From an uncultured SAR116 cluster alpha proteobacterium (GTDB lineage Bacteria; Pseudomonadota; Alphaproteobacteria; Puniceispirillales; Puniceispirillaceae), in NCBI GenBank assembly GCA_902520885.1, contig CABYPW010000014.1, forward strand, positions 1 through 61,852: a stretch of DNA of 61,852 nt, given 5' to 3'. Both the position numbers and the translations under genes were made by a program. Position 1 is the stretch's first letter. Each line of letters begins with the position of its first letter. Under the pieces are notes generated by a model. That model made no database searches, was not told the origin of the DNA, and saw only the letters and a program-made list of their open reading frames with translations. Of the stretch, positions 26,651-46,336 are shown one piece after another.

Positions 26651-26931
26651 GTGGTTTTCTTTATTTGTTCTTGCCAATCAGTATGAGCAAGTTTAACAGA
26701 GAAAATTTTATGGGTTACTGTATCTCTTTCAACTAGTAACCAAGAACGACAGCCATGTGTGTGTTGCCAAGTCTCGATTTGCCTCCCATAGGTATTTTTT
26801 CTCAAAAAAACGGCATCATACCAACTATTTTCATCCGCGTTCAATGCAGGAAATGTAATTTGACCTTCCCTTCCATAACTAAATTCACTTTGGTCGCGCT
26901 TTCCACAAAATGGACATTCTATTTGTATCAT
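26647..26931 (-). CDS. soxD: Sarcosine oxidase delta subunit
   Basis: A 94-residue small zinc-binding subunit. The N-terminal ECPFCGKRDQSEFSYG gives two cysteines (C6, C9), and HTHGCRSW supplies His59 and Cys61, the usual zinc ligands of this family. The GRQIETWQH and FSVKL segments are also typical. It lies between soxB and soxA with short or overlapping junctions and is required for assembly of the four-subunit enzyme. Confidence 0.94.
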   Translation of the reverse strand: MIQIECPFCGKRDQSEFSYGREGQITFPALNADENSWYDAVFLRKNTYGRQIETWQHTHGCRSWLLVERDTVTHKIFSVKLAHTDWQEQIKKTT

Positions 26932-28385: not shown

Positions 28386-29816
28386 TTACCAGCTTGCTGA
28401 AATATATTGTGTTTCCATAAATTCGTGCATGCCCTCATGTCCACCTTCACGACCTAGACCAGATTGCTTGCTTCCACCAAACGGTGCCGCAGGGTCTGAT
28501 ACCAAACCCCGGTTCAACCCAACCATCCCATAATCAAGGCGCTCACAAACGTGCATCCCACGTTTCATATCTTCTGTGAAAACATAAGCTACAAGACCAT
28601 ATTCAGTATCGTTGGCTCGTCTAATGACGTCTTCCGTATCTTCAAAAGACTGTATAGCGGCGACTGGCCCAAAAATCTCATCAGCAACACACTCTGCTAT
28701 TTCTGGTACATTAGTAAGAACAGTAGGTGGATAGTAAAACCCAGGACCTTCGATATCTTCCCCGCCAAGCTTAATTTCAGCACCTTTAGAAACAGCATCT
28801 TTAACAAAAAAGGCTACTTTATCTTTTGTGGATTGATTAACAAGAGGACCCACATCGGTTTCTGGGTCAAGTCCATTTCCAGTTTTAAGATTTGCCATAG
28901 CATTAGTAAATTTAGAAACAAAGTCATCGAAAACTTTTTTATGTACATAAAATCTATTTGCAGCGGTGCATGCCTCTCCGAGGTTTCTCATTTTTGCAAG
29001 CATAGCTCCCTCTACAGCTATATCGATATCAGCATCATCAAATACAATTAACGGGGCATTTCCTCCAAGTTCCATGGCTGGTTTTAATACCTGATCTGCC
29101 GCAGACCGCAATAATACCCTGCCTATTTCTGTAGAGCCAGTAAATGAAACAACTCGAACACGGGGGTCATGCAATAACCTGTCGACTAATGGTCCCGTCT
29201 TTTTGGATGGTAGAACATTCACAACTCCTTTAGGAACACCAGCTTCCTCCAGTAACGGCATTAAAGCAAGCATTGTCAAAGGCGTTTCAGATGCGGGTTT
29301 TATAATTACTGGACAGCCTGCTGCCAATGCTGGAGCAATTTTTCTTGTACCCATCGCAGCTGGGTAATTCCAAGGTGTAACTAATACTGCAATGCCTGCT
29401 GGTTTATGCTGAACAACTATACGTGCTCCACTTGCGGGCGCATGCGTGATAAGACCATCAACACGCACTGCCTCTTCTGAAAACCAGCGAAAGAATTCAG
29501 CGGCATATGCTGCTTCACCTCGGGCGTCGTTGCCAGCTTTACCGTTTTCTAAAGTTATTAAACGAGCAAATTCCTCCTGCCTTTCAATCATAAGTTCATA
29601 AGCTTTGCGCAATATTTCGGACCTAGCTCTTGGTGTCCTAGATGCCCAATCTGCAAAAGCATCTTGTGCTGCATCTAAGGCTTCTTCTGCATCTGCTATT
29701 TCGGCGGATGCGACGGAAGCAAGCACACTTTCATCTGCTGGATTAATTACATCAAACCTAGTATTTTCTGCCCCAGATTTAAAAACGCCGTTAATATATA
29801 GATCCGTATATTCCAT
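28386..29816 (-). CDS. NAD(P)-dependent succinate-semialdehyde dehydrogenase-type enzyme
   Basis: A 476-residue aldehyde dehydrogenase of the GabD/SSADH group. Seen are VTPWNYPAAM, the NAD-binding SFTGSTEIGR, the catalytic Glu in MELGGNAPLIVFDDAD, and the nucleophilic Cys in GEACTAANRFYVH. VDEIFGPVAA and PFGGSKQSGLGREGG complete the family signature. It oxidises a semialdehyde to the acid in the cytosol. It follows the lipoyl E2-like gene by 11 bases, so it belongs to the E1/E2 operon and may act on an aldehyde produced or consumed there. The SSADH substrate is from similarity only. Confidence 0.9.
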   Translation of the reverse strand: MEYTDLYINGVFKSGAENTRFDVINPADESVLASVASAEIADAEEALDAAQDAFADWASRTPRARSEILRKAYELMIERQEEFARLITLENGKAGNDARGEAAYAAEFFRWFSEEAVRVDGLITHAPASGARIVVQHKPAGIAVLVTPWNYPAAMGTRKIAPALAAGCPVIIKPASETPLTMLALMPLLEEAGVPKGVVNVLPSKKTGPLVDRLLHDPRVRVVSFTGSTEIGRVLLRSAADQVLKPAMELGGNAPLIVFDDADIDIAVEGAMLAKMRNLGEACTAANRFYVHKKVFDDFVSKFTNAMANLKTGNGLDPETDVGPLVNQSTKDKVAFFVKDAVSKGAEIKLGGEDIEGPGFYYPPTVLTNVPEIAECVADEIFGPVAAIQSFEDTEDVIRRANDTEYGLVAYVFTEDMKRGMHVCERLDYGMVGLNRGLVSDPAAPFGGSKQSGLGREGGHEGMHEFMETQYISASW

Positions 29817-29827
29817 TAAATTTTGCC

Positions 29828-30871
29828 TTAAAGTAATTGTTTTAAAGGTGATTTTATTCGCATGCTTAAGTCGCGAAGTAATGAGAGTGCATTTTGCTGA
29901 GATATTTTATTGGGTTGCCAATCCAATGTAATCATATATTGTTCTGAAAAATCTGAAATCGTAAAATTTATATCTGAATTAATATCTCCAGAAAGTTGAA
30001 TAAAATCTGTAGCTGTTAAATCACAAACTTCTGCGGTTATAGCTATATCATTGTTGGAAGGTCTGATGTTTTCTAACTGAAACTTATCTGGGTCTTGATA
30101 CAGGACACTATTTAGCTCCTCTCCAGATTTATACTTAATTCCAATAATTTCAGAGTTAATTATTACTCTCAGGCTCGCAGAAATGAATGATGCAAAGATT
30201 AATTCTGAAGAAATATTTTTTTCGGAAGCAGAGTTTATTTCAGACATAAATATCAAAAATGAGGATTTACTAACCAAGCTTGTAGCATTGTTGCGAAGGG
30301 GCATTTTCCCTTGGTGGCTGGATAATTGCCTAAGTGAGGATAGGTCAGCTGCTTTAAAAGGTTCAGTAAAACCTGCTTTTTTTAGCTCAATCAAATTTAG
30401 ATTTTCAGCTGCCGCAAGAGAGCGTAATTTTGGAGATGCAAGAATTTTCTCTTTCGTAAATGATGGTCCTTCTATCTTTTGTTCATCTAAACTGCCATTC
30501 GATGCTGAGGGTGCAGGAAAATCTTCTGCTGGTTTTGTCTCTTTTTTAATGCTTGTCTCATTAGGGAGGTTTTGTTCATTGTCATTATTATTTTTTTCAC
30601 TAGCCCTTTTCTTTTCTTGAGGCGCAGCTTCTAAGTTTTCGACAATAAGGGCAACAACTTCACCTACGGGAACATCTGTATTTTCAAATGCTGAAACATT
30701 TGCCAAGAAACCATCGTGTTGTGCTTCAACCTCCATCGTAGACTTATCTGTTTCCACTTCCATGAGTGGGTCACCTTTTTTAACAGCATCTCCCTCATTT
30801 TTAAGCCAAGCAACCAACCTTCCTGTTTCCTGAGCCATCCCTAGGGCTGGCATGATGATTTCATGCGCCAT
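29828..30871 (-). CDS. Lipoyl E2-like protein with eroded acyltransferase domain
   Basis: A 347-residue relative of dihydrolipoamide acyltransferase. Residues 1-78 are a lipoyl domain with the lipoylation site K43 in ETDKSTMEVEA. A flexible charged linker (80-140) leads to a peripheral-subunit-binding domain (about 141-178, ILASPKLRSLAAAENLNL). The rest (about 180-347) is shorter than a normal catalytic domain, and the C-terminal position of the DHRxxDG active-site motif reads LDWQPNKISQQ, so the catalytic His and Asp are absent. It probably still carries acyl groups for E1 and binds E1 or E3. The ATG at 30871 begins the canonical MAHEIIMPALGM. Confidence 0.87.
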   Translation of the reverse strand: MAHEIIMPALGMAQETGRLVAWLKNEGDAVKKGDPLMEVETDKSTMEVEAQHDGFLANVSAFENTDVPVGEVVALIVENLEAAPQEKKRASEKNNNDNEQNLPNETSIKKETKPAEDFPAPSASNGSLDEQKIEGPSFTKEKILASPKLRSLAAAENLNLIELKKAGFTEPFKAADLSSLRQLSSHQGKMPLRNNATSLVSKSSFLIFMSEINSASEKNISSELIFASFISASLRVIINSEIIGIKYKSGEELNSVLYQDPDKFQLENIRPSNNDIAITAEVCDLTATDFIQLSGDINSDINFTISDFSEQYMITLDWQPNKISQQNALSLLRDLSMRIKSPLKQLL

Positions 30872-30872
30872 T

Positions 30873-31856
30873 CTAAATTTTTCCTTCAAGAACCATTACA
30901 ACTCTCTCGTGAATCTGCTGAGCTGTAGGAACCGTTAAATCTTCTAGTACAGGTGAGAAGGGGACAGGAACATCCATTGCGCCAAGTCGCTGCACAGGAG
31001 CATCTAAATAATAGAAAGCTTTTTCAGAGATTCTCGCAGCAATTTCTGCTGTTATTCCATAATTCTGATGCCCTTCATCTATCACAATTGCATGGGAAGT
31101 CTTCTTCACAGAATTGATCAATGTTGTTTCATCAAGTGGAGATATAGTTCTTGGATCAATAACTTCTGCTGAAATATTCTGATCAGCCAGAGTATTAGCA
31201 GCCATCTCTGCTTGCTGAACCATGGAGGATGTAGCAATTAGAGTGATGTCTGTTCCAGGACGAAGAATATTTGCTTCTCCAAAGTTAATCAAATATTCTT
31301 CTTCTGGTACTTCAGCTTTATCGTTATACATCAATTTATCCTCAAAAATAACAACTGGGTTGTTATCTCTGATAGCAGTTTTCATCAACCCCTTTGCTTC
31401 ATAAGCAGAAGATGGCATGGCTACCTTTAAGCCGGGTATATGAGCAACAAGAGCTTGCAGAGATTGGCTATGCTGAGCAGCTGAACGTCGTGTAGCACCC
31501 ATATTTGTCCGCAATACCATTGGTACTGATAGCTTGCCTCCTGACATATAATGTGTTTTTGCAGCCTGATTACAAAGCTGATCCATTATCAGAAACAAGA
31601 AATCACCAAACATAAGGTCTACAATTGGTCTTAATCCTGTCATAGCAGCACCTACCGCTATTCCTGTAAAGCCTGGCTCCGATATCGGTGTGTCTATTAC
31701 TCTTTCTGTTCCAAATTCTTCAACTAGGCCGGACAAAACCTTAAATGGTGTTCCAGCCTCTGCAACATCTTCTCCAAGGATGATTATACTCTCATCCAAC
31801 CGCATTTCTTCTGCCATAGCTTCGTTTACAGCTGCCCCAAAGGTAATTTCTCTCAT
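30873..31856 (-). CDS. 2-oxoacid dehydrogenase E1 beta subunit (AcoB/PdhB type)
   Basis: A 327-residue transketolase-like beta subunit. The TPP-side Glu in GEDVAEAGTPFKV, the KVLSGLVEEFG, the DTPISEPGFTGIAVGAAM and the C-terminal domain ILRPGTDITLIATSSMV with DPRTISPLDE are all typical. Together with the alpha subunit it decarboxylates a 2-oxo acid (pyruvate, acetoin or branched-chain type) and transfers the acyl unit to lipoate. The E2-like gene starts one base after its stop codon. Confidence 0.94.
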   Translation of the reverse strand: MREITFGAAVNEAMAEEMRLDESIIILGEDVAEAGTPFKVLSGLVEEFGTERVIDTPISEPGFTGIAVGAAMTGLRPIVDLMFGDFLFLIMDQLCNQAAKTHYMSGGKLSVPMVLRTNMGATRRSAAQHSQSLQALVAHIPGLKVAMPSSAYEAKGLMKTAIRDNNPVVIFEDKLMYNDKAEVPEEEYLINFGEANILRPGTDITLIATSSMVQQAEMAANTLADQNISAEVIDPRTISPLDETTLINSVKKTSHAIVIDEGHQNYGITAEIAARISEKAFYYLDAPVQRLGAMDVPVPFSPVLEDLTVPTAQQIHERVVMVLEGKI

Positions 31857-31887
31857 TTTCTACATCCTAAATTAAAATTGTTTTACC

Positions 31888-32868
31888 TTAATTCGAGGCG
31901 AAAACATGCATATTTACCTCCGATGCATCTGGCCAAGCAGCATTAAGAGCATAATTGACGGCTTCTTCCGCATCTTTTTCTATTTGCAGCTCAATCGATT
32001 TTAGTTCTTCTGAAGTTGAGATTTTCTTATCCACTAACAGCTGACTAAAGTTAGTGATAGGATCTCTTTCCTCACGCCAAAGTTGCTCTTCTTCTTTGCT
32101 TCTATAGTACTCACGATTAATATCTCCAACATGATGTCCATGATAACGATAGGTATTTAGTAAGATAAAAAAAGGTCCATCTCCTTTTCTAGCACGCTCA
32201 ACAAGCTCTTGTGTTAAATTATTTACTGCTAATACATCTTGACCGTCTACTTCAAAACTCTCAATTCCAAATCCTTTTGCACGAGCCATGAGGTCGCCTG
32301 CGGCCATTTCCTCTACCTTAGTGTATTCTCCGTAAAGATTATTCTCGCATGCGTATATTACTGGAAGTTTCCACAAAGCAGCCATGTTCATTGTTTCATA
32401 TAAAAGACCTTGGCCAAGAGCGCCGTCTCCAAAAAAACAGACAGATACTTCTTTTTTTCCCATTCTTTTTGCAGTTAATGCAGCCCCAGTCGCAATACCA
32501 GCTGAACCACCTACGATTGCATTAGCACCGAGGTTGCCATTTGCTTGGTCAGCAATATGCATGGAACCACCTTTACCTCTGCAATACCCTTCTTGTTTGC
32601 CAAGAAGTTCACAAAACATCTGTTTAAAATCTGCTCCCTTGGCAACACAATGACCATGGCCCCTGTGCGTTGATGTTATTTTATCATTTGGTGTAAGTGC
32701 TTCGCAAATTCCAACTGCTACAGCTTCTTGGCCTACGTACATATGTGTGAGACCCGGCATTTTTGCAGATAGATATAACTGATTTGCCTGCTCTTCAAAA
32801 GCACGAATTCGCACCATTTGCCGAAACATTTGTAAATAGCTATTTTTATTATCTTTGTTATTCGACAT
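31888..32868 (-). CDS. 2-oxoacid dehydrogenase E1 alpha subunit (AcoA/PdhA type)
   Basis: A 326-residue TPP-dependent alpha subunit. The TPP motif runs from GDGALGQG to ENN (GDG x about 25 NN). RGHGHCVAKGADFKQMFCELLGK and the GKGGSMHIAD loop are standard, as is the YRYHGHHVGD phosphorylation-loop region. Length and style fit the acetoin dehydrogenase/PDH-alpha group. It is separated by 31 bases from E1 beta. The preferred 2-oxo acid is not determined. No E3 (dihydrolipoamide dehydrogenase) gene is present in the window. Confidence 0.93.
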   Translation of the reverse strand: MSNNKDNKNSYLQMFRQMVRIRAFEEQANQLYLSAKMPGLTHMYVGQEAVAVGICEALTPNDKITSTHRGHGHCVAKGADFKQMFCELLGKQEGYCRGKGGSMHIADQANGNLGANAIVGGSAGIATGAALTAKRMGKKEVSVCFFGDGALGQGLLYETMNMAALWKLPVIYACENNLYGEYTKVEEMAAGDLMARAKGFGIESFEVDGQDVLAVNNLTQELVERARKGDGPFFILLNTYRYHGHHVGDINREYYRSKEEEQLWREERDPITNFSQLLVDKKISTSEELKSIELQIEKDAEEAVNYALNAAWPDASEVNMHVFASN

Positions 32869-32935
32869 AGTTCACCGTTTTTTAGTATATTCAATTAATC
32901 AAGAAATATATGCATATCTCAGTTTAGAATTAACC

Positions 32936-34234
32936 TTAATACCTGTTAGCGATTGGGAGTTCTTCGGCTGGAAAGAGGCTTATCACTTGACATCCTTTAT
33001 CTGTAACAACTACCTCTTCTTCAATTCGTGCAGCAGATATTCCATCTGTAGCTGGGCAATATGTCTCCAGCGCAAAAACCATCCCAGTTTTTATTTCCAT
33101 GGGATTTTCGAGACTGACTGCACGCGATATTATAGGCCGTTCATGAAGAGCGAGTCCAAGTCCATGGCCGAATTGTAGCCCAAAAGCCGCAAGCTCACTT
33201 GGAAAGCCATACTCCTCAGCTTTAGGCCAAACACTGGCCACTTTGTCCGTTCCAACACCTGGTTTAATTTCAGCAATCGCTGCATTTAGCCAGTCACGCG
33301 CTTTAACGTAAGCATCGTTCTGCACCGATGTAGCACGACCAATATTAAATGTTCGATAATAACAAGTACGATACCCCTGATAACTCTGCAAAATGTCAAA
33401 AAATGCCTGGTCTCCAGGGCGGAAATATCTATCCGTAAAATTGTGAGGGTGAGGACTACATCTTTCCCCAGCTATTGCATTAATTGCTTCTACATCATCT
33501 GAGCCCATCTCATAGAGCATTTTATTTGCAAGAGCCACGATATCATTTTCTCGGACGCCTGGCTTTAATTCTTCCCATATCATATGGTATACCCCATCAA
33601 CCATACTGGCTGCTTGGTTTAATAATTGAATTTCATCCACGTTTTTTATTTCTCTTGCTTCCAGCATAATTTGTTGGCCATCTACGACATTTAGGCCAGC
33701 TTCCTGAAGCGCAAAGAACATCGCTGTTTCAGCATAATCAACTCCAACTGGCATATCAGAAACGCCTGCCTTCTTAATAAGTGAGGCAATCTCTTCTGCA
33801 TAATATTTCATCAACCCAAAAGACGGAGGTATTGTTCCTCTCATGCCAACCACTCCAGGAAGGCAATGTTCAGGGTCAAGCCAATCACAATTAAGTTTAT
33901 GATGAACAGCAGCGGAACCAAAATCCCAAACATAAGGTTCATCATCCCCGGCTAGAAGTGCAAAGCGACACATTTTGTCTCGCTCCCATTCACCAATTTT
34001 TGTTCCAGTAATATAACGTATATTATTAACATCGAACGTAAGGATAGAACCACAATTAGAGTTTTTGAGCGCATTTTTTGCTCTACTCAGCCTGTATCTT
34101 CTTAAACGGTCGTGATCAACACGTCTTTCAAAATCGACAGCGGTGTGACCAAGGGCAGGTATTGGTCTATCCCAACTCCAATTTTGATTAGAGTCGCTTG
34201 GCTGAAGAATGCGTGGGCTTAGAGCATTTGTCAT
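32936..34234 (-). CDS. M24 (Xaa-Pro peptidase/creatinase-fold) protein with incomplete metal site
   Basis: A 432-residue pita-bread-fold protein with the creatinase N-terminal domain (about 40-195) and M24 domain (about 205-425). D280, H357 (FGHGLGLALHE), E390 and E405 fit metal-site positions, but the second Asp of the usual D-x(10)-D pair falls in a CYYRT stretch (291-295), so a dinuclear centre is unlikely. The family includes prolidases, creatinase and the DMSP lyase DddP; which activity applies is unclear. It leads the E1 alpha/beta, E2-like, aldehyde dehydrogenase run, 67 bases upstream of E1 alpha. Confidence 0.83.
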   Translation of the reverse strand: MTNALSPRILQPSDSNQNWSWDRPIPALGHTAVDFERRVDHDRLRRYRLSRAKNALKNSNCGSILTFDVNNIRYITGTKIGEWERDKMCRFALLAGDDEPYVWDFGSAAVHHKLNCDWLDPEHCLPGVVGMRGTIPPSFGLMKYYAEEIASLIKKAGVSDMPVGVDYAETAMFFALQEAGLNVVDGQQIMLEAREIKNVDEIQLLNQAASMVDGVYHMIWEELKPGVRENDIVALANKMLYEMGSDDVEAINAIAGERCSPHPHNFTDRYFRPGDQAFFDILQSYQGYRTCYYRTFNIGRATSVQNDAYVKARDWLNAAIAEIKPGVGTDKVASVWPKAEEYGFPSELAAFGLQFGHGLGLALHERPIISRAVSLENPMEIKTGMVFALETYCPATDGISAARIEEEVVVTDKGCQVISLFPAEELPIANRY

Positions 34235-34366
34235 TTTACTATTCCGTTCTAAATAATACCAAATTTAAATTAGATGATTGAATTATGTATATAAAATCTT
34301 ATCTAAATTTTTAGCTTAAGCAATAAAAAATTGATCATGTTAGATGAACACCAATGAATTTTTAAA

Positions 34367-34407
34367 TAGCTAAAATGTCAATAACATTTAATGTAAGTAG
34401 CTAAAAT
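34367..34407. repeat. Direct repeat TAGCTAAAAT in promoter region of the M24 gene
   Basis: TAGCTAAAAT occurs at 34367-34376 and again at 34398-34407, a spacing of 31 bases or about three helical turns. The 220-base interval lies upstream of the M24 gene on the minus strand and downstream of the ThuA gene. The spacing would suit a regulator bound twice on one face, but the repeats are short and AT-rich. Confidence 0.35.
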
Positions 34408-34454
34408 TGCGATTTAAATTTGGATGATTTCATGTTCTAAGGCTGATTTAACTC

Positions 34455-35171
34455 TCATTTATAATTGATATTTGCTCCTGCTGCCCACAACATACCGCGC
34501 CTCATTATTTCAGTAACACTAGGATGTTTGAGATCGTCTAATAAATGTCCGATTGAGCAATAAAAAATGCGTCCCTTATCCCAGCGGCGTTTCCAAGCGA
34601 TAGGCATTACTGTCCCTTCAATCCACCAGTGGTGCTCTCCTGAGAAGGTGGTGGTTGCCAGTACTTCGTTTGATGGGTCTACTAGCATATAATATTGCTC
34701 ACTATGCAGTTTAAAACTTCTAATACCGTATGTGATAGGATCATCTGGCTTGCAAATAGTAACATCATAATGCACAAAATCAGCTGTTGGATCTTGATTA
34801 TCAGGCCAACCTGGAGGGTGGGCAACAAATTGACCGCCGATTAGAAAGTGATAGGTGGGTCTATCCCTAAATGCGTCACCCATATGTCCATGCCACCCTG
34901 CCAGACCACAGCCATTAGCAATAAGCTTAACAAGGCCATCCTCTTGCAATTTAGTCATATTACCAAATTCAGCTTGATGAGAAGAACGAGCACTTGACCA
35001 AATCGGCACAATCAACTCAACATCTTCCAATTTTTCTGGGTTTTCAAGAGGTGCCAACGTCTCATATACTTCGACATCAAACTCGTTTTTTTCGAGAAGC
35101 TCTTTACACCAATTGCTAAATGCTATTGGTGAATGACCTTCCCATCCTCCTGCAAATAATATTGCTTTCAT
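34455..35171 (-). CDS. ThuA-domain protein
   Basis: A 238-residue class I glutamine-amidotransferase-like fold of the ThuA family. The start KAILFAGGWEGHSP, the GCGLAGWHGHMGDAFRDR region and GRIFYCSIGHLLDD are characteristic. ThuA-domain proteins occur in trehalose, maltitol and other sugar loci and are often linked to 3-keto-sugar chemistry, though the exact reaction is unsettled. The ATG at 35171 begins the conserved domain; an in-frame TTG 24 bases earlier is less likely. It is 38 bases downstream of the SDR gene and probably co-transcribed with it. Confidence 0.87.
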   Translation of the reverse strand: MKAILFAGGWEGHSPIAFSNWCKELLEKNEFDVEVYETLAPLENPEKLEDVELIVPIWSSARSSHQAEFGNMTKLQEDGLVKLIANGCGLAGWHGHMGDAFRDRPTYHFLIGGQFVAHPPGWPDNQDPTADFVHYDVTICKPDDPITYGIRSFKLHSEQYYMLVDPSNEVLATTTFSGEHHWWIEGTVMPIAWKRRWDKGRIFYCSIGHLLDDLKHPSVTEIMRRGMLWAAGANINYK

Positions 35172-35209
35172 TTTTGGAGTTATCTTATATTGCAACTATA
35201 AGATGTGCA

Positions 35210-36034
35210 TTAACGCATGCATCCACCGCCATCTATACACATACCACCATCTATCATTATAAGTTGCCCGTTCATATAATCGGAGTCAGCGCTTGCAAGG
35301 AAAGATGCTGTTCCAACAATATCTTCTGGGTATGAATAACGCCCCATTAGAATCATTTTCCTTGTGACCTCATCCATCGATTTACCTTCCTCATCAAACT
35401 TGCCAATTGCAACCAGATCTTTATCTAGCTGATGCCATAATTCAGTTGCTACAACGCCAGGACCATATCCATTGACTGTGATGTTATGTTCTACTAAAGC
35501 TTTCGAACCTCCTCTTATCATTGCGAGAACAGCATGTTTTGAAGATGCGTATGGTACGATATCGTCAAAAGATAAATGCGAGGCAATGGACCCCACATTT
35601 ATGATTTTGTAGGGTCCGTTTTCTTTGCCTTGAGCTATCATTTGTTTTGCAGTTTCCTGCATGCCAAGAAGAACGCCAAGGCCATTAACTTTCATAATCA
35701 TATCCCAGTTTTCTTCTGTTATGTCCAAAAACATTAGGGGCTTGTTTATGCCAGCATTTAATACAGAAACGTTTATAGAGCCAAAGGCATTAACCGTGCA
35801 AGCCACTGCAGCTGCGTTGTCTTCTCGTGAGGTGACATCCATTTTTATGGCGACTGCTTTGCCATTTCCCGCTGAATTAATCCTGTTCGCAACTTCTTGC
35901 GCACCGGATTCATTCACGTCACCTAAGCAAACATTTGCTCCTTGGGCTGCATAATTCTCTCCAATCGCAGCCCCCATCCCCTGAGCGCCTCCCGTGATTA
36001 AAATATTTTTTCCAGCTAAACGTGATTTATTCAT
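35210..36034 (-). CDS. SDR-family oxidoreductase
   Basis: A 274-residue classical short-chain dehydrogenase. The NAD(P) motif is ITGGAQGMGAAIG, NAG occurs in VLNAGINKP, and the catalytic Ser and Tyr-x-x-x-Lys are in NVGSIASH and YASSK. A C-terminal YMNGQLIMIDGG closes the domain. The fold matches sorbitol/acetoin-type reductases, consistent with oxidation of a sugar or polyol taken up by the divergent ABC system. The ATG at 36034 has GGAG six bases upstream and is preferred over the ATG at 36046. Confidence 0.9.
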   Translation of the reverse strand: MNKSRLAGKNILITGGAQGMGAAIGENYAAQGANVCLGDVNESGAQEVANRINSAGNGKAVAIKMDVTSREDNAAAVACTVNAFGSINVSVLNAGINKPLMFLDITEENWDMIMKVNGLGVLLGMQETAKQMIAQGKENGPYKIINVGSIASHLSFDDIVPYASSKHAVLAMIRGGSKALVEHNITVNGYGPGVVATELWHQLDKDLVAIGKFDEEGKSMDEVTRKMILMGRYSYPEDIVGTASFLASADSDYMNGQLIMIDGGMCIDGGGCMR

Positions 36035-36097
36035 AATATGCTCCATCTAAGAATTCTCTATTAACTCAAACGCAAGCTATTGATCGATTAAATTGAA

Positions 36098-36140
36098 AAT
36101 ATATCCATAATGATAATAATATATCCAAAATGGATATATT
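36098..36140. promoter_or_regulatory. Candidate operator: three copies of AATATATCCA
   Basis: AATATATCCA occurs at 36098-36107 and 36118-36127 (direct, exactly 20 bases apart, two helical turns). Its exact reverse complement TGGATATATT is at 36131-36140, making a ten-base-pair perfect inverted repeat with an AAA centre. The cluster lies between the divergent SDR/ThuA and ABC-transporter operons. It looks like a binding site for a dimeric regulator controlling both directions. The wHTH-SBP protein at the end of the ABC operon is the obvious candidate, by inference. Confidence 0.6.
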
Positions 36141-36236
36141 ATCTATTCTTTGTTAAACTTCTTTACAACACAATTTTGAATAATCGCCCTATCTTTTTTT
36201 GATGAGGATTTGATGACAAAATACGGGAGGTATCAT

Positions 36237-37274
36237 ATGTCAATTGGTAAATTATTTATAAAATTTGTGGCTATCGCTGGGGTCGCTTTATTTTCGTTTT
36301 CGCCAGCGCACTCAGCTTCTCACAGTAAGGGATCAATAGTTTCATTTAATGGTCCTGCAGGAGAAGCATATATTGGTCGCTTTATTAAAGGCATAAAAGC
36401 AACAGCAGAATTAAAAGGATTTGATATAAAGGTATATGAAAACCAGTTTAATCAGGCAGAACAGGATCAACAGGTACAGCAGGTTTTAGCCGCTGGTCAA
36501 TTGCCAGATGTATTTATTTGGTGGCCATCAGATGCGGTCGCCGGTTTAGGCTCTCTTCGAGCGCTTGCTAAAACAGGAGTGCCTGTTTTAAAAATTAATC
36601 AATTACCAAATGAGCAAGATAAGCAGTACATCTTTGGTTATGCCGGTCCTGACGATAGATTAAGAGCACGAAATGCAGGCTATATGATGCGCGAAGCAGC
36701 GGCGGCAAAAAAGGCGGCAGGCGGTGAGGGGTTTAATGTTTTGGCACTCTCATATCCGCATTCATATGGTGGTTATGATTTGTCAATAAACGCTTTCAAA
36801 GAAGCAATTGCTGGTTCTGATTTAAAAATTATTGGTGATGTTGATGAGGGTTTTGGCCAAGCTAATGGATATAAAGGCGCTGCCAAAATGATTGCAAAGC
36901 TAAAAGACCAAGGCATCCATTTTGTGTATGGTATGGATGATGCCATTCTCACTGGTGGTATCAAAGCCCTTGAAGAAGCTGGCTATAAAATGGGTGAAGA
37001 TGTGATTGCTGTGGGTACTGTATGTAACGGAGATAAGCAACTTATCGAAGAAGGAAAACAGTTCGGTACCACCTTGCAGTCTCCATTGCATGAGGGACAG
37101 CTGGCTATCAAGATGGTTGAGGAGTATCTAAATACAGGAAAGCTTGAAAACTACATTAACTTCACGCCTAACCCTTCAGTTACAAAAGATACAATCGAAA
37201 CAACAGCACTTCGTGGTTTTGATGGTAAGTTATACACAGTAGAAGAATTATGTTCAGGTGCATGGGCAGACTAA
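36237..37274 (+). CDS. Sugar ABC transporter substrate-binding protein (RbsB type)
   Basis: A 345-residue periplasmic binding protein of the LacI/ribose-binding fold. Residues 1-26 form a signal peptide (hydrophobic core VAIAGVALFSF, cleavage after AHS). The mature part has NQAEQDQQVQQVLAAGQLPDVFIWWPSD, typical of the sugar-binding PBP-4-like domain, and an ALEEAGYKMGEDVIAVG segment near the C-terminus. The ATG at 36237 has GGGAGG six bases upstream; longer in-frame starts add a poor N-terminus. First gene of a five-gene operon. Ligand is probably a sugar or polyol. Confidence 0.9.
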   Translation: MSIGKLFIKFVAIAGVALFSFSPAHSASHSKGSIVSFNGPAGEAYIGRFIKGIKATAELKGFDIKVYENQFNQAEQDQQVQQVLAAGQLPDVFIWWPSDAVAGLGSLRALAKTGVPVLKINQLPNEQDKQYIFGYAGPDDRLRARNAGYMMREAAAAKKAAGGEGFNVLALSYPHSYGGYDLSINAFKEAIAGSDLKIIGDVDEGFGQANGYKGAAKMIAKLKDQGIHFVYGMDDAILTGGIKALEEAGYKMGEDVIAVGTVCNGDKQLIEEGKQFGTTLQSPLHEGQLAIKMVEEYLNTGKLENYINFTPNPSVTKDTIETTALRGFDGKLYTVEELCSGAWAD

Positions 37275-37315: not shown

Positions 37316-37362
37316 TCTCTTATTTATTCATTTTATACGGATGAATTTATTGGACATAATTG

Positions 37363-38874
37363 ATGGAAGAACAACTTTTATCACTTTCTAAAATAACCAG
37401 GTCATTTGGTGCTATTCATGCCTTGAAAGAAGTATCTTTTGGTGTCATGCCCGGTGAAGTTATGGGTTTGGTTGGAGAAAATGGTGCTGGAAAATCTAGT
37501 CTTGTTAAAATAATAGGAGGATTTGACTCTGGGTACACTGGTCAGTTGACCTTCGCTAATAAACAGGTACGTTTTTCCGGACCAGTCATGGCAGAGAGAG
37601 CAGGAATTGCAATTGCTCAGCAAGAATTGTCGCTTATCCCAACAATGTCAGTGGCGGAAAACGTATTATTAGTTGGCGATAATGTCCCTAAAATAGCAAC
37701 AAAAAGACAGCTTATAAAATTGGTTGAGCCTTTCCTCTCAGAGGTAGGATTGGATTATATTGACCCAGCAACTTCTGTTGAAAGGTTATCTGTTGGTGAA
37801 AGGCATCTTGTTGAGGTTGCAAGGTTGATTGCGCATGACCCACAGCTTTTGATATTAGATGAGCCTACTGCTGCTTTGGGAGAGACGGACTCAATTCGAA
37901 TTCTAGAAATGGTCGAAAGGCTGGTTAAACGTGGCAAGTCCGTAATTTATGTTAGCCACCGATTAGATGAAATTTTTAAAATTTGCGATCGTATTACAAT
38001 TTTAAGGGATGGTAGAAGTGTAGCAGTAAAAAATACAAAAGGATTGTCTGTTTCTGAACTTGTTAACTCAATGCTTGGCAGAGAATTAGAGAATATGTTC
38101 CCCAAAAGGATTTCAACTAGTTCTAAAACACCTTTGTTAAAAGTTCGTGATTTATGGCCGGACGGTTTGCTGGATCCAGTTGATTTAGATATTTTCCCTG
38201 GTGAAATTTTAGGATTGGCAGGCCAACTCGGGTCAGGTACGGGGGAGATTTTATCTGCGATCGCTGGCGCACATCCAATTAGGGGTGGAAGTCTTGAAAT
38301 GGATGGGAACGTCTTTATGCCAAAAACCCCAAATGAAGCAATCAAAGCAAAGATCGCCTATTGCTCCGAAGATAGAAAACATGACGGTTTATTTTTGGGA
38401 AGACCAATAATTGAAAATCTTACCTCTACTGCGCTAAAAAGAATTGGGAATTTTGGTATTTTACAGCCATCTGCTGAGAATGGCCTTGCAAATGATATAG
38501 CCAAAGGATTTACTATTGATAACAGCAGACTGCCATCTGAAGCTGGGGTACTGTCTGGTGGAAATCAGCAAAAAGTTGCACTTGGAAAATGGTTGGCAAT
38601 AAGTCCTAAAGTGATTTTAGTGAACGAGCCCACAAGGGGAGTTGATGTTGGTGCGAGAGCTGAAATCTATCAGACACTTCACAAACTAGCAAAAAAAGGT
38701 ACCGCTATTGTAATTGCCTCAACAGACTTACAGGAAATCGCAAATCTGCCAACAAGAATCATTGCGTTTTATCGAGGTCTTAAAGTGTCCGAACTTGGAT
38801 ATAGAGAGGTATCGGCGGAAAATATTCTTACTCAGATAACAGACCCATTTGGCGCTGCCAAGTTAGAAAGGTAG
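37363..38874 (+). CDS. Sugar ABC transporter ATPase (RbsA/MglA type, two nucleotide-binding domains)
   Basis: A 503-residue tandem ATPase. NBD1 has Walker A GENGAGKSSL, signature LSVGERHLVEVAR and Walker B LLILDEPTAAL. NBD2 has a degenerate Walker A (GQLGSGTGEIL, no Lys), signature LSGGNQQKVALGKWL and LVNEPTRGVD, the usual asymmetry in the RbsA group. The ATG at 37363 is preferred over the TTG immediately before it. It energises uptake with the two following permeases. Confidence 0.94.
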   Translation: MEEQLLSLSKITRSFGAIHALKEVSFGVMPGEVMGLVGENGAGKSSLVKIIGGFDSGYTGQLTFANKQVRFSGPVMAERAGIAIAQQELSLIPTMSVAENVLLVGDNVPKIATKRQLIKLVEPFLSEVGLDYIDPATSVERLSVGERHLVEVARLIAHDPQLLILDEPTAALGETDSIRILEMVERLVKRGKSVIYVSHRLDEIFKICDRITILRDGRSVAVKNTKGLSVSELVNSMLGRELENMFPKRISTSSKTPLLKVRDLWPDGLLDPVDLDIFPGEILGLAGQLGSGTGEILSAIAGAHPIRGGSLEMDGNVFMPKTPNEAIKAKIAYCSEDRKHDGLFLGRPIIENLTSTALKRIGNFGILQPSAENGLANDIAKGFTIDNSRLPSEAGVLSGGNQQKVALGKWLAISPKVILVNEPTRGVDVGARAEIYQTLHKLAKKGTAIVIASTDLQEIANLPTRIIAFYRGLKVSELGYREVSAENILTQITDPFGAAKLER

Positions 38875-38886
38875 GAGAAATTTAGC

Positions 38887-39912
38887 ATGTCCCCAATAAG
38901 CGAGCCAATTAACCAGTTGCCAAAACCTAGTATTTTAGAAAAACTAATTCAGAGGCATTCTAAGTTGGCAATTACGCTTCTTGCTATTTTTATAGTTGTG
39001 TTCGTTTATGGAATGGTAACCGCTCCAAATTTTCTTACCTTGTTTAACTTTAAGACTATAATCCGTGATGCGGCTCTGGTTGGCATCATGGCAATTGGTC
39101 TTACGTTCGTTACTTTATCTGGGAATTTCTTTCTCTTATCAATGAAGGAAACAGCGGCTTTATGCATTATCGCCTTTGCTACTGGAATGGCTAGCGGGTG
39201 GGGGTTTGAGTTATCATTTTTATTCACAATGGTATTTGCACTTATTGCAGGCATATCTCAAGGAGCACTTATTGGGATAGGGGGAAATCCTATTGTTGTA
39301 ACTTTGGGTGCTGCTGGTGTTTTGTATGGTCTAGGTGCTTATTGGAGTGATAATTTAGTAGTTTCCTACCGACGCCCGCATGGAGCAGAATGGCTTGGAA
39401 CGGGCTCTTTCCTCGGACTTCCTAATATTACAGTCGCCTTCATCCTGATTGCTATAAGTGCGGAGTTATTATTGCGAAAAACAAGCTTTGGAAGACAGGT
39501 CTATCTAATTGGGGCTAATAGGGCGGCAGGAAGAGCGACCGGGCATGAGAATTTCTGGATGGCAATAAAAGTGTGTACTATTGCCTCGGTCTGCTCTGCC
39601 TTTGTTGCGATTGCGTTTTCTGCGCAGGTTTCGTCTGCTCAAGTCAACTACTTTTCTTCTGAGTTTGGTTCTTCAGGTGACATGACGATAATGGTTATCG
39701 CAACTGTTATGGTTGGCGGAAACTCAATTATGGGTGGCTTTGGTTCCACACTTCGCTCAAGCCTTGGTGCCGTTTTTATATCTACCGTTGATAATATGAT
39801 GGTTTTGCATGGGTTTAATAGTGGCCCAAGGGTATTCGCTGTCGGATTAATGATTGTTTTTAGTATTATTGTGTTCGCTATATTACGTCGCGGTAGCCGA
39901 AGTGAAGAATAG
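38887..39912 (+). CDS. Sugar ABC transporter permease 1 (RbsC type)
   Basis: A 341-residue inner-membrane permease with about eight to ten hydrophobic segments. The GLTFVTLSGNFFLLS stretch and the coupling-region segment YLIGANRAAGRATGHENFWMAIKV are family marks, as is the C-terminal MVGGNSIMGGFGSTLRSSLGAV. AGGAG lies eight bases before the ATG. It pairs with a second, clearly different permease gene 69 bases downstream, so a heterodimeric channel is probable. Confidence 0.92.
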   Translation: MSPISEPINQLPKPSILEKLIQRHSKLAITLLAIFIVVFVYGMVTAPNFLTLFNFKTIIRDAALVGIMAIGLTFVTLSGNFFLLSMKETAALCIIAFATGMASGWGFELSFLFTMVFALIAGISQGALIGIGGNPIVVTLGAAGVLYGLGAYWSDNLVVSYRRPHGAEWLGTGSFLGLPNITVAFILIAISAELLLRKTSFGRQVYLIGANRAAGRATGHENFWMAIKVCTIASVCSAFVAIAFSAQVSSAQVNYFSSEFGSSGDMTIMVIATVMVGGNSIMGGFGSTLRSSLGAVFISTVDNMMVLHGFNSGPRVFAVGLMIVFSIIVFAILRRGSRSEE

Positions 39913-39981: not shown

Positions 39982-41022
39982 ATGGCAGTTGAGAAAATAT
40001 TATCATTTATCAAACAGAAACCAGACTTAATGTTCGCGATTATTCTCGCTTTTTTTGTTTATTGTGTATTTGCATTCACGAACGATTATTTTATGACACA
40101 TAGAACAACCTTTGCAATTATGGAAAGGTTCGCTGTTCTTGGTTTGGTTGGACTTGCATTAACTCTATGTATTATCGCCGGAGAAATTGACCTATCTATT
40201 GGCTCAAATGCAGCGCTTGCAGCCGTCATTGTAGTACGATTTACCGACTCACTAGGTGCGCCAACAGCGCTTCTCATTGCAGTTGCAGTCTCAACAATTA
40301 TTGGTCTCATACAAGGATATTTTATCGCATATTTAAGAATTAGAGCAATAGTTTTGACTGTTGGCACCTTAATGTTGCTTCGCGGGATCTCTCTTTTTGT
40401 TGCTGAAGAAAAAACGGTTATGCTCACCGATTTTCGTATACCAGATTTTATAACAACAAAAGTTCTGTGGTATTTTTCTCCAGCTAGCTTGACAGTGATT
40501 GCAATGTTTGTGCTTGTTGGCTTATTCATGAACTTTACTAAATATGGCCGAGAAATTTATGCAATTGGTGGTGCCAGAAAAGAGGCACTCGCCGCTGGAA
40601 TAAGTCTCAAACGCCCAATGATTATTGTATTTGCTATTTCAGGATTCTGTGCTGGTCTTGGTGGTGTAATTATAGGGTTAAGGTCAGGTACCGCTCAGGC
40701 ATTAGGTCTCCAGTACCTTTTGTTAGCAGGGACCGTTGCTGCATTCATTGGTGGCGTAAGTATCCTAGGTGGAAGAGGCGGAGTAGTTGGTGCTGTTATT
40801 GGTGCTTTAACTGTGAATTTTCTTAATACTGGGCTTGTTTTCAATGTAACTCCGGCATTTATGGTTCAATTATATCTTGGAATTTTATTGTTAGTCGTCA
40901 TTATGTTTCAGACAGGGTCGGTGATATTTGAGAAACGACAGAGGCGATATCAGATATTAAAAGATATAGATAATAGAAGAGAACGCCTGAAAAAAGAAAT
41001 GAAGGGTGGTGCTCAGCCATAA
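39982..41022 (+). CDS. Sugar ABC transporter permease 2 (RbsC type)
   Basis: A 346-residue inner-membrane permease. Typical elements are TLCIIAGEIDLSIGSNAALA (the GxxDLS motif), YAIGGARKEALAAGISLKRP as the coupling loop and GGVSILGGRGGVVGAVIGAL near the C-terminus. Permease 1 lacks the IDLS element, which shows that the two are not recent duplicates. A basic cytoplasmic tail (KRQRRYQILKDIDNRRERL) follows the last helix. GAGGAAG precedes the ATG. Confidence 0.92.
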   Translation: MAVEKILSFIKQKPDLMFAIILAFFVYCVFAFTNDYFMTHRTTFAIMERFAVLGLVGLALTLCIIAGEIDLSIGSNAALAAVIVVRFTDSLGAPTALLIAVAVSTIIGLIQGYFIAYLRIRAIVLTVGTLMLLRGISLFVAEEKTVMLTDFRIPDFITTKVLWYFSPASLTVIAMFVLVGLFMNFTKYGREIYAIGGARKEALAAGISLKRPMIIVFAISGFCAGLGGVIIGLRSGTAQALGLQYLLLAGTVAAFIGGVSILGGRGGVVGAVIGALTVNFLNTGLVFNVTPAFMVQLYLGILLLVVIMFQTGSVIFEKRQRRYQILKDIDNRRERLKKEMKGGAQP

Positions 41023-41095: not shown

Positions 41096-42895
41096 ATGCG
41101 TGGAATAGACCAAAACCAATTAAATATGAAAATAGTGGGTATTTCAGATAAAAAAGAGCCCTATGAAGAGGTTGATCTGCTACCAATCGGTGCTGCAAAT
41201 CAGACACTTATTAATAGACTTGAATTTCTAGAGGAACTCCAAAACGAAATTGAGACATGCTTCAATTTGCGCACAGGTTTCAGCGAGCTTCGAATTTTAA
41301 CTGCGCTGATGAAAAATCATCTCGAAGGTAAAATATCTACCAAAACGTCCCTTGTAGGTTATTCTGGAATGGCTTTTGGAACAGCTATGAGAACTATTGA
41401 GCGCATAGAAGAGCTAGAACTAATAGTCAGAAGACCAAAAACAGAAACTGGAAAAAGTTTTTCATTGCATCCTTCAGAAAAACTTATTGCTCAATGGCAT
41501 GAATTATCTAGGCGGATGGAACATATCTTTAAGGTAAATTCTGCGTTATCCGAAGAAACAACTAATCGTATTAATTACTTTTTTGGTAGTTCATATCAGG
41601 ATGGAAATATTTTGCCGCCACCTAGTATTATGATGAAGAAGCTGCCTCTAAAAAAAGGTCTCAGCCTTCTACTACATGCAGACCCGACCTCTATGGCAAT
41701 AGCTAAACTTAAAAAACATTTTGAGATTATGTTTGGTGTGAATATCCAAAATAGGGCATTATCTATTGACCGTTTAAGAGAAGAAATTCTGATTAATGCC
41801 ACGAGAGAGCAATCCAAATATGACATAATTGCATGTGATTTGCCGTGGTTTGGAGAGATGGCAGATGCAGGGCATTTCTTGCCTTTAGATAAATATATTA
41901 ATGAGACAGGGTTTGATACTACTGACTTCTATCAAGAGGCGTTGGCAAGTTCAAGATTCAAAGGCCAGCAATTTGGAATTCCAATCCATACAACACCTGA
42001 ACTGCTCATTTGCAGAACAGATGTTTTTTCAAGCTTGGAACTGAAATTTCCAGAAACAATCCAAGAAATGCTTGATGCCGCTTATGCTATTCAGCGTGCT
42101 TCAATTGAAATGAAGGCTATCGCTTGGAATGCAGCAAGAGGCACGCCCCTTGGGCATAGTTTTTTATTCTCAATGGGCTCATTTGGTCAGCCTATCATTA
42201 ATCTTCGCCAGTTAGACTCAGGGTTTGATGCAGAGTGGCCGAAGGGAGAAGAGTTTAGACCAATGTTCGGAACAGACGCAGCAAGAGATGTCTGTGAATT
42301 TTTTTTAGAGTTGATTAACTTATCTCCAAAAAATATTCTGAATATGTCCTGGTTTGAGCGCGCTCGTGCTTATACAAATGGTGAGGTTGGCATGGTTTTT
42401 AACGCATCCCTATTGTCTCCAATGTTTGAGTTCGACAGTATGTCACCGGCATTTGGAAAATCAACTTATTTGCCTCTTCCTGCGGGAAAAGCTGGACGGC
42501 AGATTGCGCCAGTTGGCGGATATGCTCTAGCAATACCCAGAAATGTGCTATCTCAGCGTGTCCCTCACATATGGAGTGCTATTGAGGAATTATCGTCAGC
42601 ATGGGCAACAAAGATATTTATTGAAAATGGAAGTTTGGTCAGTCCTCGAAATAGTGTGTCAAAAGATAAAGAGGTACAAAAAATATCCCATGTAATTGGT
42701 ATAATTGATGATTTGGCAACCACTGGTACCCTAAAAATGTGGCCTCGTCCTCCAATACCGGAGATATCAAACTTAATTTCAATAGCTGGTACAGAGATTC
42801 ATGATTTTCTCTCTGGCAAGGTCAGCAAAAGAATAGCCCTTATGAATGCCCAGAATAGAGCAGATAGTTTGATGCGCTCTAAAGGCTATTATTAA
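41096..42895 (+). CDS. Winged-helix regulator fused to an extracellular-solute-binding-protein fold
   Basis: A 599-residue protein of unusual architecture. Residues about 60-150 look like a MarR-type winged helix (FSELRILTALMKNHL, then GTAMRTIERIEELELIVRR and a wing-like strand). Residues about 185-590 match carbohydrate-binding SBPs of family 1: SIMMKKLPLKKGLSLLLHAD, YDIIACDLPWFGEMADAGHF, a hinge with GQQFGIPIHTTPELLICR and PVGGYALAIPRN. There is no signal peptide or membrane segment, so it should be cytosolic. It is last in the sugar ABC operon, 73 bases after permease 2. The likely role is a transcription regulator sensing the imported ligand; this is inference. The start could also be a TTG at 41069. 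Confidence 0.82.
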   Translation: MRGIDQNQLNMKIVGISDKKEPYEEVDLLPIGAANQTLINRLEFLEELQNEIETCFNLRTGFSELRILTALMKNHLEGKISTKTSLVGYSGMAFGTAMRTIERIEELELIVRRPKTETGKSFSLHPSEKLIAQWHELSRRMEHIFKVNSALSEETTNRINYFFGSSYQDGNILPPPSIMMKKLPLKKGLSLLLHADPTSMAIAKLKKHFEIMFGVNIQNRALSIDRLREEILINATREQSKYDIIACDLPWFGEMADAGHFLPLDKYINETGFDTTDFYQEALASSRFKGQQFGIPIHTTPELLICRTDVFSSLELKFPETIQEMLDAAYAIQRASIEMKAIAWNAARGTPLGHSFLFSMGSFGQPIINLRQLDSGFDAEWPKGEEFRPMFGTDAARDVCEFFLELINLSPKNILNMSWFERARAYTNGEVGMVFNASLLSPMFEFDSMSPAFGKSTYLPLPAGKAGRQIAPVGGYALAIPRNVLSQRVPHIWSAIEELSSAWATKIFIENGSLVSPRNSVSKDKEVQKISHVIGIIDDLATTGTLKMWPRPPIPEISNLISIAGTEIHDFLSGKVSKRIALMNAQNRADSLMRSKGYY

Positions 42896-45130: not shown

Positions 45131-46336
45131 TCAGATGAAAGCTGATTTAGCTGTTAGTAATCCAACAGGTGTTTTTTGGAGACATAAAGGCCCTTCTTTT
45201 GATATTACAAATAAAGCTCCGGTTTGCACACCTCTCATTCCAGTTGAGTCCGTGATGTTAGGCTGTACAACAATAGCCATGCCCTCCTGCAGTTTAATGT
45301 CTGGAATATCACCCGCAGGTCTTGATTTTGAGCCCAATATTGGCGGTAGATATCCACCACCAAATCCATGAATAAGGTCATCACATGTAGTAAGACCACT
45401 CTCCTCAATAATGCTGGCGGCATCTAGTATCTCTTGCATTGTGCAACCGCTCCGTAAAACTGAAGCTATTGAATTTAGGGCACTATTTGCAACCTCATGA
45501 AATTCGGTTACCCAATTAGCTGGTTTAGCGCGCATTGACATCGACCTGAGAACTTGTCCTGCATAGCCTCTAAAAGCACCACTAATTTCCATAACAATTA
45601 AATCATCTTTTGTTATTGCCCTGCTGGTAGCATTTTGTCTTGGAACCATCCCATCTGGTTTATCCATATTTGTTGATATAAAATAACGAATATGTGCCTG
45701 ACCTCCTAATTGTAACCAACTATTTTCTGCAATTGAAACTAGGTCATGCTCCGTCATATTGGGTTCTATCTTCTCATAAATTGATTTAACTGCCAGATCA
45801 GAAAAATAGGCACCAATTTTTAAACATTTAATCTCTGCATTAGTCTTGATTAGTCGAGTTTTTTCGTACCAACTGTCAAGGGGAGTAAGAAGATAACCTG
45901 CCTCTGTTATCGAAGTCATCATTTCAAAACTCATTTTACCAATTAAACCAACCTTTCGAGCTTTTATCTGGTTAAGATGGTTCAACATTGTTTGTGCTGT
46001 ATTTGGCCCACCCCAGGAAACAGAAGCACCGTATGCTGTGGATTTTGCTTGCGGTGTATGATTATAATACTGAACGAATAGTTTAGCCTCCGAATCAAGA
46101 GATATTATAAGCAGGGCCTCTGCCGATACTGGCCAGCCTGTGAGCCATGGGATTGCTGAACCCGCTCGCTCAGCACCATAAATAATAAGACTATCTAGTT
46201 TGGTATCTTCTAAATAAGTTATAACCTTTTGCCATCTTTTTTGATATTCCTCATCACTAAAACATCTTCCCTTAATCCCTCTCAAGTCCTCAAGGTCTTC
46301 ATCTAGTTTTAAGGAAAATTCAGTCTTAGTTAACAT
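45131..46336 (-). CDS. M24-family (creatinase-like) protein with degenerate metal ligands
   Basis: A 401-residue two-domain protein of the Xaa-Pro peptidase/creatinase fold, with a creatinase N-domain (about 25-165) and pita-bread domain (about 175-395). The first metal Asp position reads VMEISGAF (Glu), the second lies in GQVLRSMSM (no Asp), the His motif reads LIHGFGGGYLPP, and the final Glu positions read VQPNITDS and GVQTGAL. Little of the metal site survives, so metal-free chemistry, as in creatinase, or a non-enzymatic role is likely. It is the last of a minus-strand series with the hydrolase at 46402. Confidence 0.82.
   Translation of the reverse strand: MLTKTEFSLKLDEDLEDLRGIKGRCFSDEEYQKRWQKVITYLEDTKLDSLIIYGAERAGSAIPWLTGWPVSAEALLIISLDSEAKLFVQYYNHTPQAKSTAYGASVSWGGPNTAQTMLNHLNQIKARKVGLIGKMSFEMMTSITEAGYLLTPLDSWYEKTRLIKTNAEIKCLKIGAYFSDLAVKSIYEKIEPNMTEHDLVSIAENSWLQLGGQAHIRYFISTNMDKPDGMVPRQNATSRAITKDDLIVMEISGAFRGYAGQVLRSMSMRAKPANWVTEFHEVANSALNSIASVLRSGCTMQEILDAASIIEESGLTTCDDLIHGFGGGYLPPILGSKSRPAGDIPDIKLQEGMAIVVQPNITDSTGMRGVQTGALFVISKEGPLCLQKTPVGLLTAKSAFI

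Follow-up and report, generated by a model that had tools for sequence, protein, structure and literature searches.

LacI and LysR are the older solutions in which a DNA-binding head is joined to a sensor with a binding-protein fold. LacI/GalR regulators, which serve sugar operons, combine a non-winged helix-turn-helix (HTH) with a periplasmic-binding-protein-like sensor of type I (Peripla_BP), and LysR-type regulators carry an N-terminal winged helix followed by a type II periplasmic-binding-protein-like effector domain. Fusions of GntR with a solute-binding protein (SBP) are found in Firmicutes. Proteins of the MarR family are short stand-alone dimers of about 150 amino acids, and SBP_bac_1 proteins are normally exported, usually serving CUT1 transporters. 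What appears to be the closest named analogue of the protein described here is SgrR of E. coli (DsvR in Vibrio cholerae), in which an N-terminal HTH is followed by a C-terminal SBP_bac_5 domain and which regulates sugar-related genes (PMC13060122). The original prediction for this locus, that no named family is known with an HTH-then-SBP order, needs correcting with respect to SgrR, which has that order.

The window, by which we mean the whole stretch of 61,852 nucleotides that was analysed, comes from an uncultured SAR116 cluster alphaproteobacterium and contains a gene for a predicted fusion of a winged helix-turn-helix (wHTH) domain with an SBP domain (Table 1). The longest version of the open reading frame begins at TTG 41069 and adds nine residues; the start at 41096 is favoured by the relatives in the family alignment. 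The frame is single and unbroken, and all 39 further copies and relatives checked for frameshifts are likewise single open frames, of at least 564 residues, in agreement with the prediction of one gene without a frameshift. Two near-identical copies (99-100%) were found in public SAR116 records by a genome contig search. The gene begins 73 bases after the last permease gene of an ABC transporter operon.

Table 1. Features of the regulator locus and its linked genes, with positions in the window
Feature	Position	Strand	Remarks
Rest of divergent run	28386..34234	-	SSADH-like aldehyde dehydrogenase, lipoyl-domain protein, TPP-dependent E1 beta, E1 alpha, M24 family protein
Divergent ThuA-like and SDR (acetoin-reductase-like) genes	34455..36046	-	share operator region
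Degenerate second operator-like repeat TATATCCATAATGATAATA	36100..36118		20 bp upstream of the predicted operator, 5.3 bits
Predicted operator core ATCCAAAATGGAT	36123..36135		exact ATCCA-N3-TGGAT
Exported type I (Peripla_BP_4) substrate-binding protein, CUT2-type transporter	36210..37274	+	Peripla_BP_4, 94 bits
CUT2-type ABC ATPase	37360..38874	+	two ABC stretches; best NCBIfam match AraG/RbsA-like, below cut-off
BPD_transp_2 permease 1	38887..39912	+	Pfam
BPD_transp_2 permease 2	39982..41022	+	Pfam
Predicted wHTH-SBP regulator gene	41096..42895	+	ATG start, 599 aa; TTG 41069 start possible
Predicted winged helix-turn-helix domain	41276..41539	+	residues ~61-148; family-level evidence
SBP_bac_1 (sugar-binding-protein) domain	41654..42892	+	residues 187-599; putative ligand sensor

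The C-terminal part had been read as a family-1 sugar-binding SBP at residues of about 185-590, and database matches confirmed this. With Pfam SBP_bac_1 (PF01547) the window protein scores 65 bits over residues 216-483, where the cut-off is 26, and SBP_bac_8 matches it as well; at E <= 1 the SBP_bac_1 model also matches all 34 of the family SBP halves scanned. A profile of these 34 halves (A2) matched 51 distinct solved sequences at E <= 1e-10, the best being 5iai (1.6e-58), with the trehalose/maltose-binding protein 1eu8 at 2.4e-43. The profile and the tree described below use 34 of 40 rows, the omitted ones (L009, L010, L060, L075, L080 and L081) being near-copies or close relatives of rows that were kept. 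The C-terminal 410 residues of the window protein are homologous to exported CUT1 sugar-binding proteins such as 5iai and 1eu8, from which it differs in showing no signal peptide, in its predicted N-terminal DNA-binding domain and in its setting, as no CUT1 permeases were found among the neighbouring window genes scanned. It is unlikely that the SBP half of such a regulator has lost small-molecule binding and works by contact with another protein, for example a transporter subunit or an enzyme. The half has diverged, with 30% identity or less to non-fused SBPs among the matches listed, which would suit such a loss; yet it can be aligned with sugar-binding structures over almost its whole length, keeps a 'YRKDLF' stretch and a GG-aromatic position, both with a putative role in ligand binding, when compared with 5iai and 1eu8, and has 15 invariant columns across the 34 sequences. 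A sensor that binds a small ligand is the reading we prefer for this half.

A MarR-type winged helix had been predicted at residues of about 60-150, and it was borne out at the level of the family only. No HTH model of Pfam or NCBIfam matched the window protein at E <= 1, either in the whole protein or in its N-terminal half by itself. When the N-terminal halves of 40 family members (alignment A1) were scanned one by one, MarR_2 matched 32 of them at E <= 1 (best 3.1e-5) and HTH_IclR matched 18 (best 1.9e-8), and in a control scan of the 34 SBP halves 11 families were matched, none of them a winged helix. With the family profile against the PDB, TubR came first (3e-4) and a SlyA-like structure followed (1.7e-3), and in an HHalign comparison with 12 MarR-type proteins taken from related genomes the aligned part was residues of about 61-148, including the wing (E 6e-5, probability 65). 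The family consensus, T-TSL---SG-PYATA-R-I------GLI--RPRT-TGKSFSLHPS, follows a helix-turn-helix-wing pattern in the alignment; the wHTH segment 'TSLVGYSGMAFGTAMRTIERIEELELIVRRPKTETGKSFSLHPS' of the window protein spans residues 84-127. AlphaFold gave a mean pLDDT of 31 for the full length from three nearly identical sequences, an alignment too shallow for the purpose, and a pLDDT of 62 for residues 30-164, again from a shallow alignment; the latter model lacked strands and a wing, Foldseek gave no match for it at E <= 0.001, and neither model was informative about the fold. Membership of the MarR-type wHTH fold is supported at the sequence-family level, whereas the window protein by itself gives no significant match. 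Of the profile check on both halves that was proposed with the original prediction, the SBP side succeeded on the window protein itself (SBP_bac_1 and SBP_bac_8), and the HTH side failed there and needed the family members. The likeness to the MarR family lies in the winged helix, most often of MarR_2 and also of IclR type. Here, however, the wHTH is joined to an SBP, and with a fused product of 599 amino acids the protein does not belong to the MarR family proper, in which the MarR domain stands alone without another large domain.

SgrR shares the layout of the window protein, with the HTH at the N-terminal end and the solute-binding-protein domain at the C-terminal end, but differs in its sensor, which is SBP_bac_5 and not SBP_bac_1, and in its genomic setting. 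As a parent family it was rejected: the window protein has no meaningful BLASTP match to E. coli SgrR, the SBP halves are unrelated by HHalign, and the wHTH heads are only weakly alike (HHalign probability 12). The SgrR_N model matched two of the 40 family members (best 4e-4), and neither SgrR_N nor SBP_bac_5 matched the window protein at E <= 1. In the preferred reading the window family is a separate lineage. LacI/GalR proteins resemble it in joining a DNA-binding head to a periplasmic-binding-protein-like sensor, but the window family would have a wHTH in place of the non-winged HTH and SBP_bac_1 in place of the type I sensor, and neither the LacI HTH model nor the Peripla_BP sensor model hit the window protein at E <= 1. 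The same holds for HTH_1 and LysR_substrate; in place of the LysR-type effector domain, the window protein has as its sensor an entire SBP_bac_1 domain, about 410 residues long. At title and abstract level, with most subscription journals outside the scope of the search, no description of a wHTH-SBP_bac_1 family or of its operator was found, and the two papers in which one of the operator strings occurs are, by their titles, on other subjects.

The wHTH-SBP fusion is a family and does not stand alone. Full-length relatives with 24-48% identity to the window protein occur in other Alphaproteobacteria and in Paraburkholderia, from 48% in Skermanella to about 24% in Paraburkholderia. Among genomes of the class, nine of 387 gave a match at E <= 1e-30, and among genomes drawn from the phylum seven of 396 did so at E <= 1e-25, the own genome being included in both counts; more relatives were sought in viral contigs and none was found. 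In a tree of the 34 fused SBP halves with 14 non-fused SBPs, all 34 fusions fell into one clade (support 0.958), which points to a single origin of the fused SBP halves among the members compared. Each of three non-fused relatives (about 25% identity) has CUT1 permeases next to it together with a regulator of LacI or ROK type; by their setting these three are ordinary transport proteins. One locus (L069) carries two different wHTH-SBP paralogues, at 4872 on the plus strand and 12582 on the minus strand, either side of one CUT2 operon.

The original prediction also held that the protein has no signal peptide, and by eye none was seen in any of 16 members, with chosen or annotated starts. A hydrophobicity score separated the groups partly, with 0.77-2.16 for the fusions and 0.89-2.62 for exported SBPs. 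In several members the annotated start falls at the first helix of the wHTH, so that database versions of the family may be truncated. The start codons annotated at 9025 in L039 and at 9013 in L042 coincide with the first helix of the winged helix or fall within it. A tblastn search of plasmid records returned 333 matching records, of which 34 cover at least 80% of the query, and 26 of these 34 bear the label 'extracellular solute-binding protein'. These labels, together with the normal export of SBP_bac_1 proteins, would suit an exported or membrane-attached SBP with an odd N-terminal extension that acts as the partner of an ABC transporter. We regard this as highly improbable, as visual inspection of the 16 members revealed no signal peptide, the starts often lie at the first wHTH helix, the family has an N-terminal winged helix at the profile level, and the linked transporter is of the CUT2 type with its own Peripla_BP_4 protein, whereas SBP_bac_1 usually serves CUT1. 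An exported SBP was rejected on account of the absence of a visible signal peptide and of the type of the adjoining transporter; judged from sequence, neither an export signal nor cognate permeases were apparent. A cytoplasmic protein is the reading carried forward here.

The operon that ends with the regulator gene runs from a Peripla_BP_4 protein through a double ABC ATPase and two BPD_transp_2 permeases, and is of the CUT2 type (RbsBAC-like). It had been described as an RbsBAC-type operon with its own, unrelated periplasmic binding protein, and this description holds, given a match of that protein to Peripla_BP_4 (94 bits) and not to SBP_bac_1. The probable start of the binding protein is the ATG at 36237, opening MSIGKLFIKFVAIAGVALFSFSPAHSA, in which a signal peptide can be recognised by eye. 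The binding protein was found in five genomes, two of which (G035 and G037, with copies at 756-1817 of C177 and 110-1126 of C37) gave no regulator match, but these assemblies are fragmentary, in 250 and 130 contigs, and a gap in them would look the same as a missing gene.

A survey of genome neighbourhoods, proposed as a further check, covered 38 loci, some of which (three or more) are near-copies of others, and placed CUT2 ABC genes within the fetched flanks of wHTH-SBP fusions in 32 of them. The six exceptions are four Rhizobiaceae loci of hydroxyquinol type (L046, L074, L075 and L076), a CUT1 locus (L048) and a locus that runs into the end of its record (L077). Upstream, the nearest recognised gene is a divergent CUT2 binding-protein gene in 20 of 35 regions, and to face such a gene is a usual position for a regulator. 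Loci with a roseobacter-type gene order have recurring partners, namely SDR, M24, TPP-dependent E1 alpha and beta, lipoyl protein, aldehyde dehydrogenase, ThuA and a 3-hydroxyisobutyrate-dehydrogenase-like enzyme, and the window carries this partner set on both sides of the ABC operon. The M24 protein of the divergent run (28386-36046, minus strand) is distantly DddP-like, with 95.6 bits against a cut-off of 600.

A predicted operator was obtained from the relatives. All 5-base inverted repeats with spacers of 0-12 were scanned de novo in the 400 bases upstream of relatives, using 35 of 40 upstream regions (the window, L009, L010, L078 and L080 were omitted). The dyad ATCCA-N3-TGGAT was present in nine of the 35 regions, compared with four for the next best dyad and a maximum of three in 100 Markov resamplings. 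The window contains one exact copy, in the intergenic stretch from which the SDR and binding-protein genes diverge; the extended 19-bp site, TATATCCAAAATGGATATA, spans 36120-36138. With up to two mismatches 30 sites were found in the window against 37.9 expected, so that there is no enrichment and the case rests on the strong site. The own genome holds five exact sites, and the four besides the window site lie inside open reading frames of 269-417 amino acids. Across 37 wide loci (753,714 bases, window included) there are 18 exact matches, 16 of them between 500 bases upstream and 250 bases downstream of the called starts of linked genes. The exact site at 11926 in L076 is about 100 bases before a ketopantoate-reductase-type gene adjoining the regulator, and that at 10774 in L081 directly follows the regulator, ahead of a CUT1 operon.

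A 19-base matrix was then built from 13 sites in 10 training loci, none of them from the window's family or from the named Rhizobiaceae loci; L066 was offered for training, gave no site and stands outside the held-out set, and L009, L010, L078 and L080 were omitted from the test. The single best site of a locus was counted as anchored if no more than 300 bases separated it from the called start of the regulator, CUT2 binding-protein or regulator-joined oxidoreductase gene. This was so in 14 of 24 held-out loci, compared with a mean of 3.0 and a maximum of 10 for 500 column-shuffled matrices, none of which reached 14; the count is indicative, the anchor rule having been set after the site list was seen, and because the held-out loci are related the 14 are not independent events. 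Among the 10 misses, the best or second site precedes other cluster genes in L057, L061, L040, L081, L048 and L076, and L047, L065, L073 and L062 have no convincing top site by the matrix. In L062-L064 a variant, ATTCA-N3-TGAAT, lies in the gap before the regulator. Within the window the matrix ranks the predicted operator first, with 23.6 bits against 13.9 for the next best site. A second site of more than 4 bits was found at a distance of 20-21 bases in 13 of the 17 loci examined (20 in the window), a count made without a chance control; such a spacing is about two helical turns and would suit two dimers on one face of the DNA. A promoter-like match, TTGAAA-16-AATAAT at 36093-36120, runs across part of the first repeat and reaches up to the operator, though AT-rich DNA holds many matches of this kind (6 found, 1.9 expected).

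The palindrome could belong to another transcription factor common to these loci even if the fusion is a true regulator, and ROK, FCD and LysR regulators are indeed annotated in some neighbourhoods. We give this little credence, since no other regulator type recurs in the same manner among the annotated loci listed, and the site is found in loci whose genes differ (roseobacter-type, hydroxyquinol-type and CUT1-type). Nor did the 16 neighbouring window proteins scanned, from open reading frames of at least 100 amino acids, show an HTH model: 12 flanking proteins between 28.4 and 48.3 kb gave none (seven scanned at E <= 1e-5, five at E <= 1e-4), and the four transporter proteins gave none at E <= 1. 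The fusion itself is the factor to which we assign the site.

The fused architecture, the lack of a recognisable signal peptide, the conservation of both halves, the linkage to transporter and catabolic genes and the placement of the palindrome can be read from the sequence, and on these the protein is very probably a cytoplasmic one-component regulator, with the wHTH acting on ATCCA-N3-TGGAT, the SBP domain serving as ligand sensor and the divergent promoters of the window under its control. This agrees with the original prediction of a regulator with a captured SBP sensor, which is supported in that the operator predicted from relatives falls in the linked promoter gap. DNA binding, ligand binding, dimerisation and the sign of regulation are inferred, and the mechanism would run as follows. 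The N-terminal winged helix, probably as a dimer, would bind ATCCA-N3-TGGAT palindromes, which are often paired 20-21 bp apart. The SBP domain would close around a ligand or intermediate, sugar- or polyol-like, whose presence signals the imported compound, and the bound ligand may be the imported substrate. Closure would alter DNA binding and so switch two divergent operons, which in the window would be the ABC operon and the opposing SDR-ThuA-M24-dehydrogenase run, from promoters in 36047-36236. Being the last gene of the ABC operon, the regulator would control itself too. Repression relieved by ligand is slightly favoured over activation, because the operator abuts the promoter-like match, a weak argument in AT-rich DNA. 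The linked enzymes give a hint of a polyol- or acetoin-like carbon source.

It is probable that the family constitutes a separate, unnamed class of one-component regulators, in which a MarR/IclR-like wHTH is fused to a CUT1-type SBP minus its export signal. The class would have diversified across Alphaproteobacteria with jumps beyond, become linked to at least three catabolic gene sets and kept one recognisable, often tandem operator, ATCCA-N3-TGGAT, while hidden in databases among extracellular solute-binding proteins. If this is true, evolution has once more, and independently, made a gene switch out of a binding-protein fold, beside LacI, LysR and SgrR. It also suggests that entries named 'extracellular solute-binding protein' in many Alphaproteobacteria are cytoplasmic regulators, and for marine and soil bacteria such labels would distort both the number of transporters counted and the substrates predicted. 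The operator may disclose CUT2 regulons, and hence offer a way to the substrates of these transporters, and with a predicted operator in hand DNA binding can be tested at once.

Several gene sets at or near these loci deserve mention in their own right. In five Rhizobiaceae loci (L046, L074, L075, L076 and L079) a butanediol-type dehydrogenase, YciI, a Gfo/Idh/MocA protein and an intradiol dioxygenase adjoin the regulator, forming the hydroxyquinol-type set, and four of the five also have a maleylacetate reductase; this set may lead from a cyclic polyol to hydroxyquinol. An operator-like site precedes the oxidoreductase gene, in the adjoining gap, in each of the five. In the window, a sarcosine-oxidase-alpha-like protein with a GCV_T domain is encoded at 23672-26677 on the minus strand, adjoined by a DAO-family oxidase at 26943-28223 on the same strand. 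A second M24/creatinase-like protein is found on the far side of the ABC operon, at 45131-46336 (minus strand).
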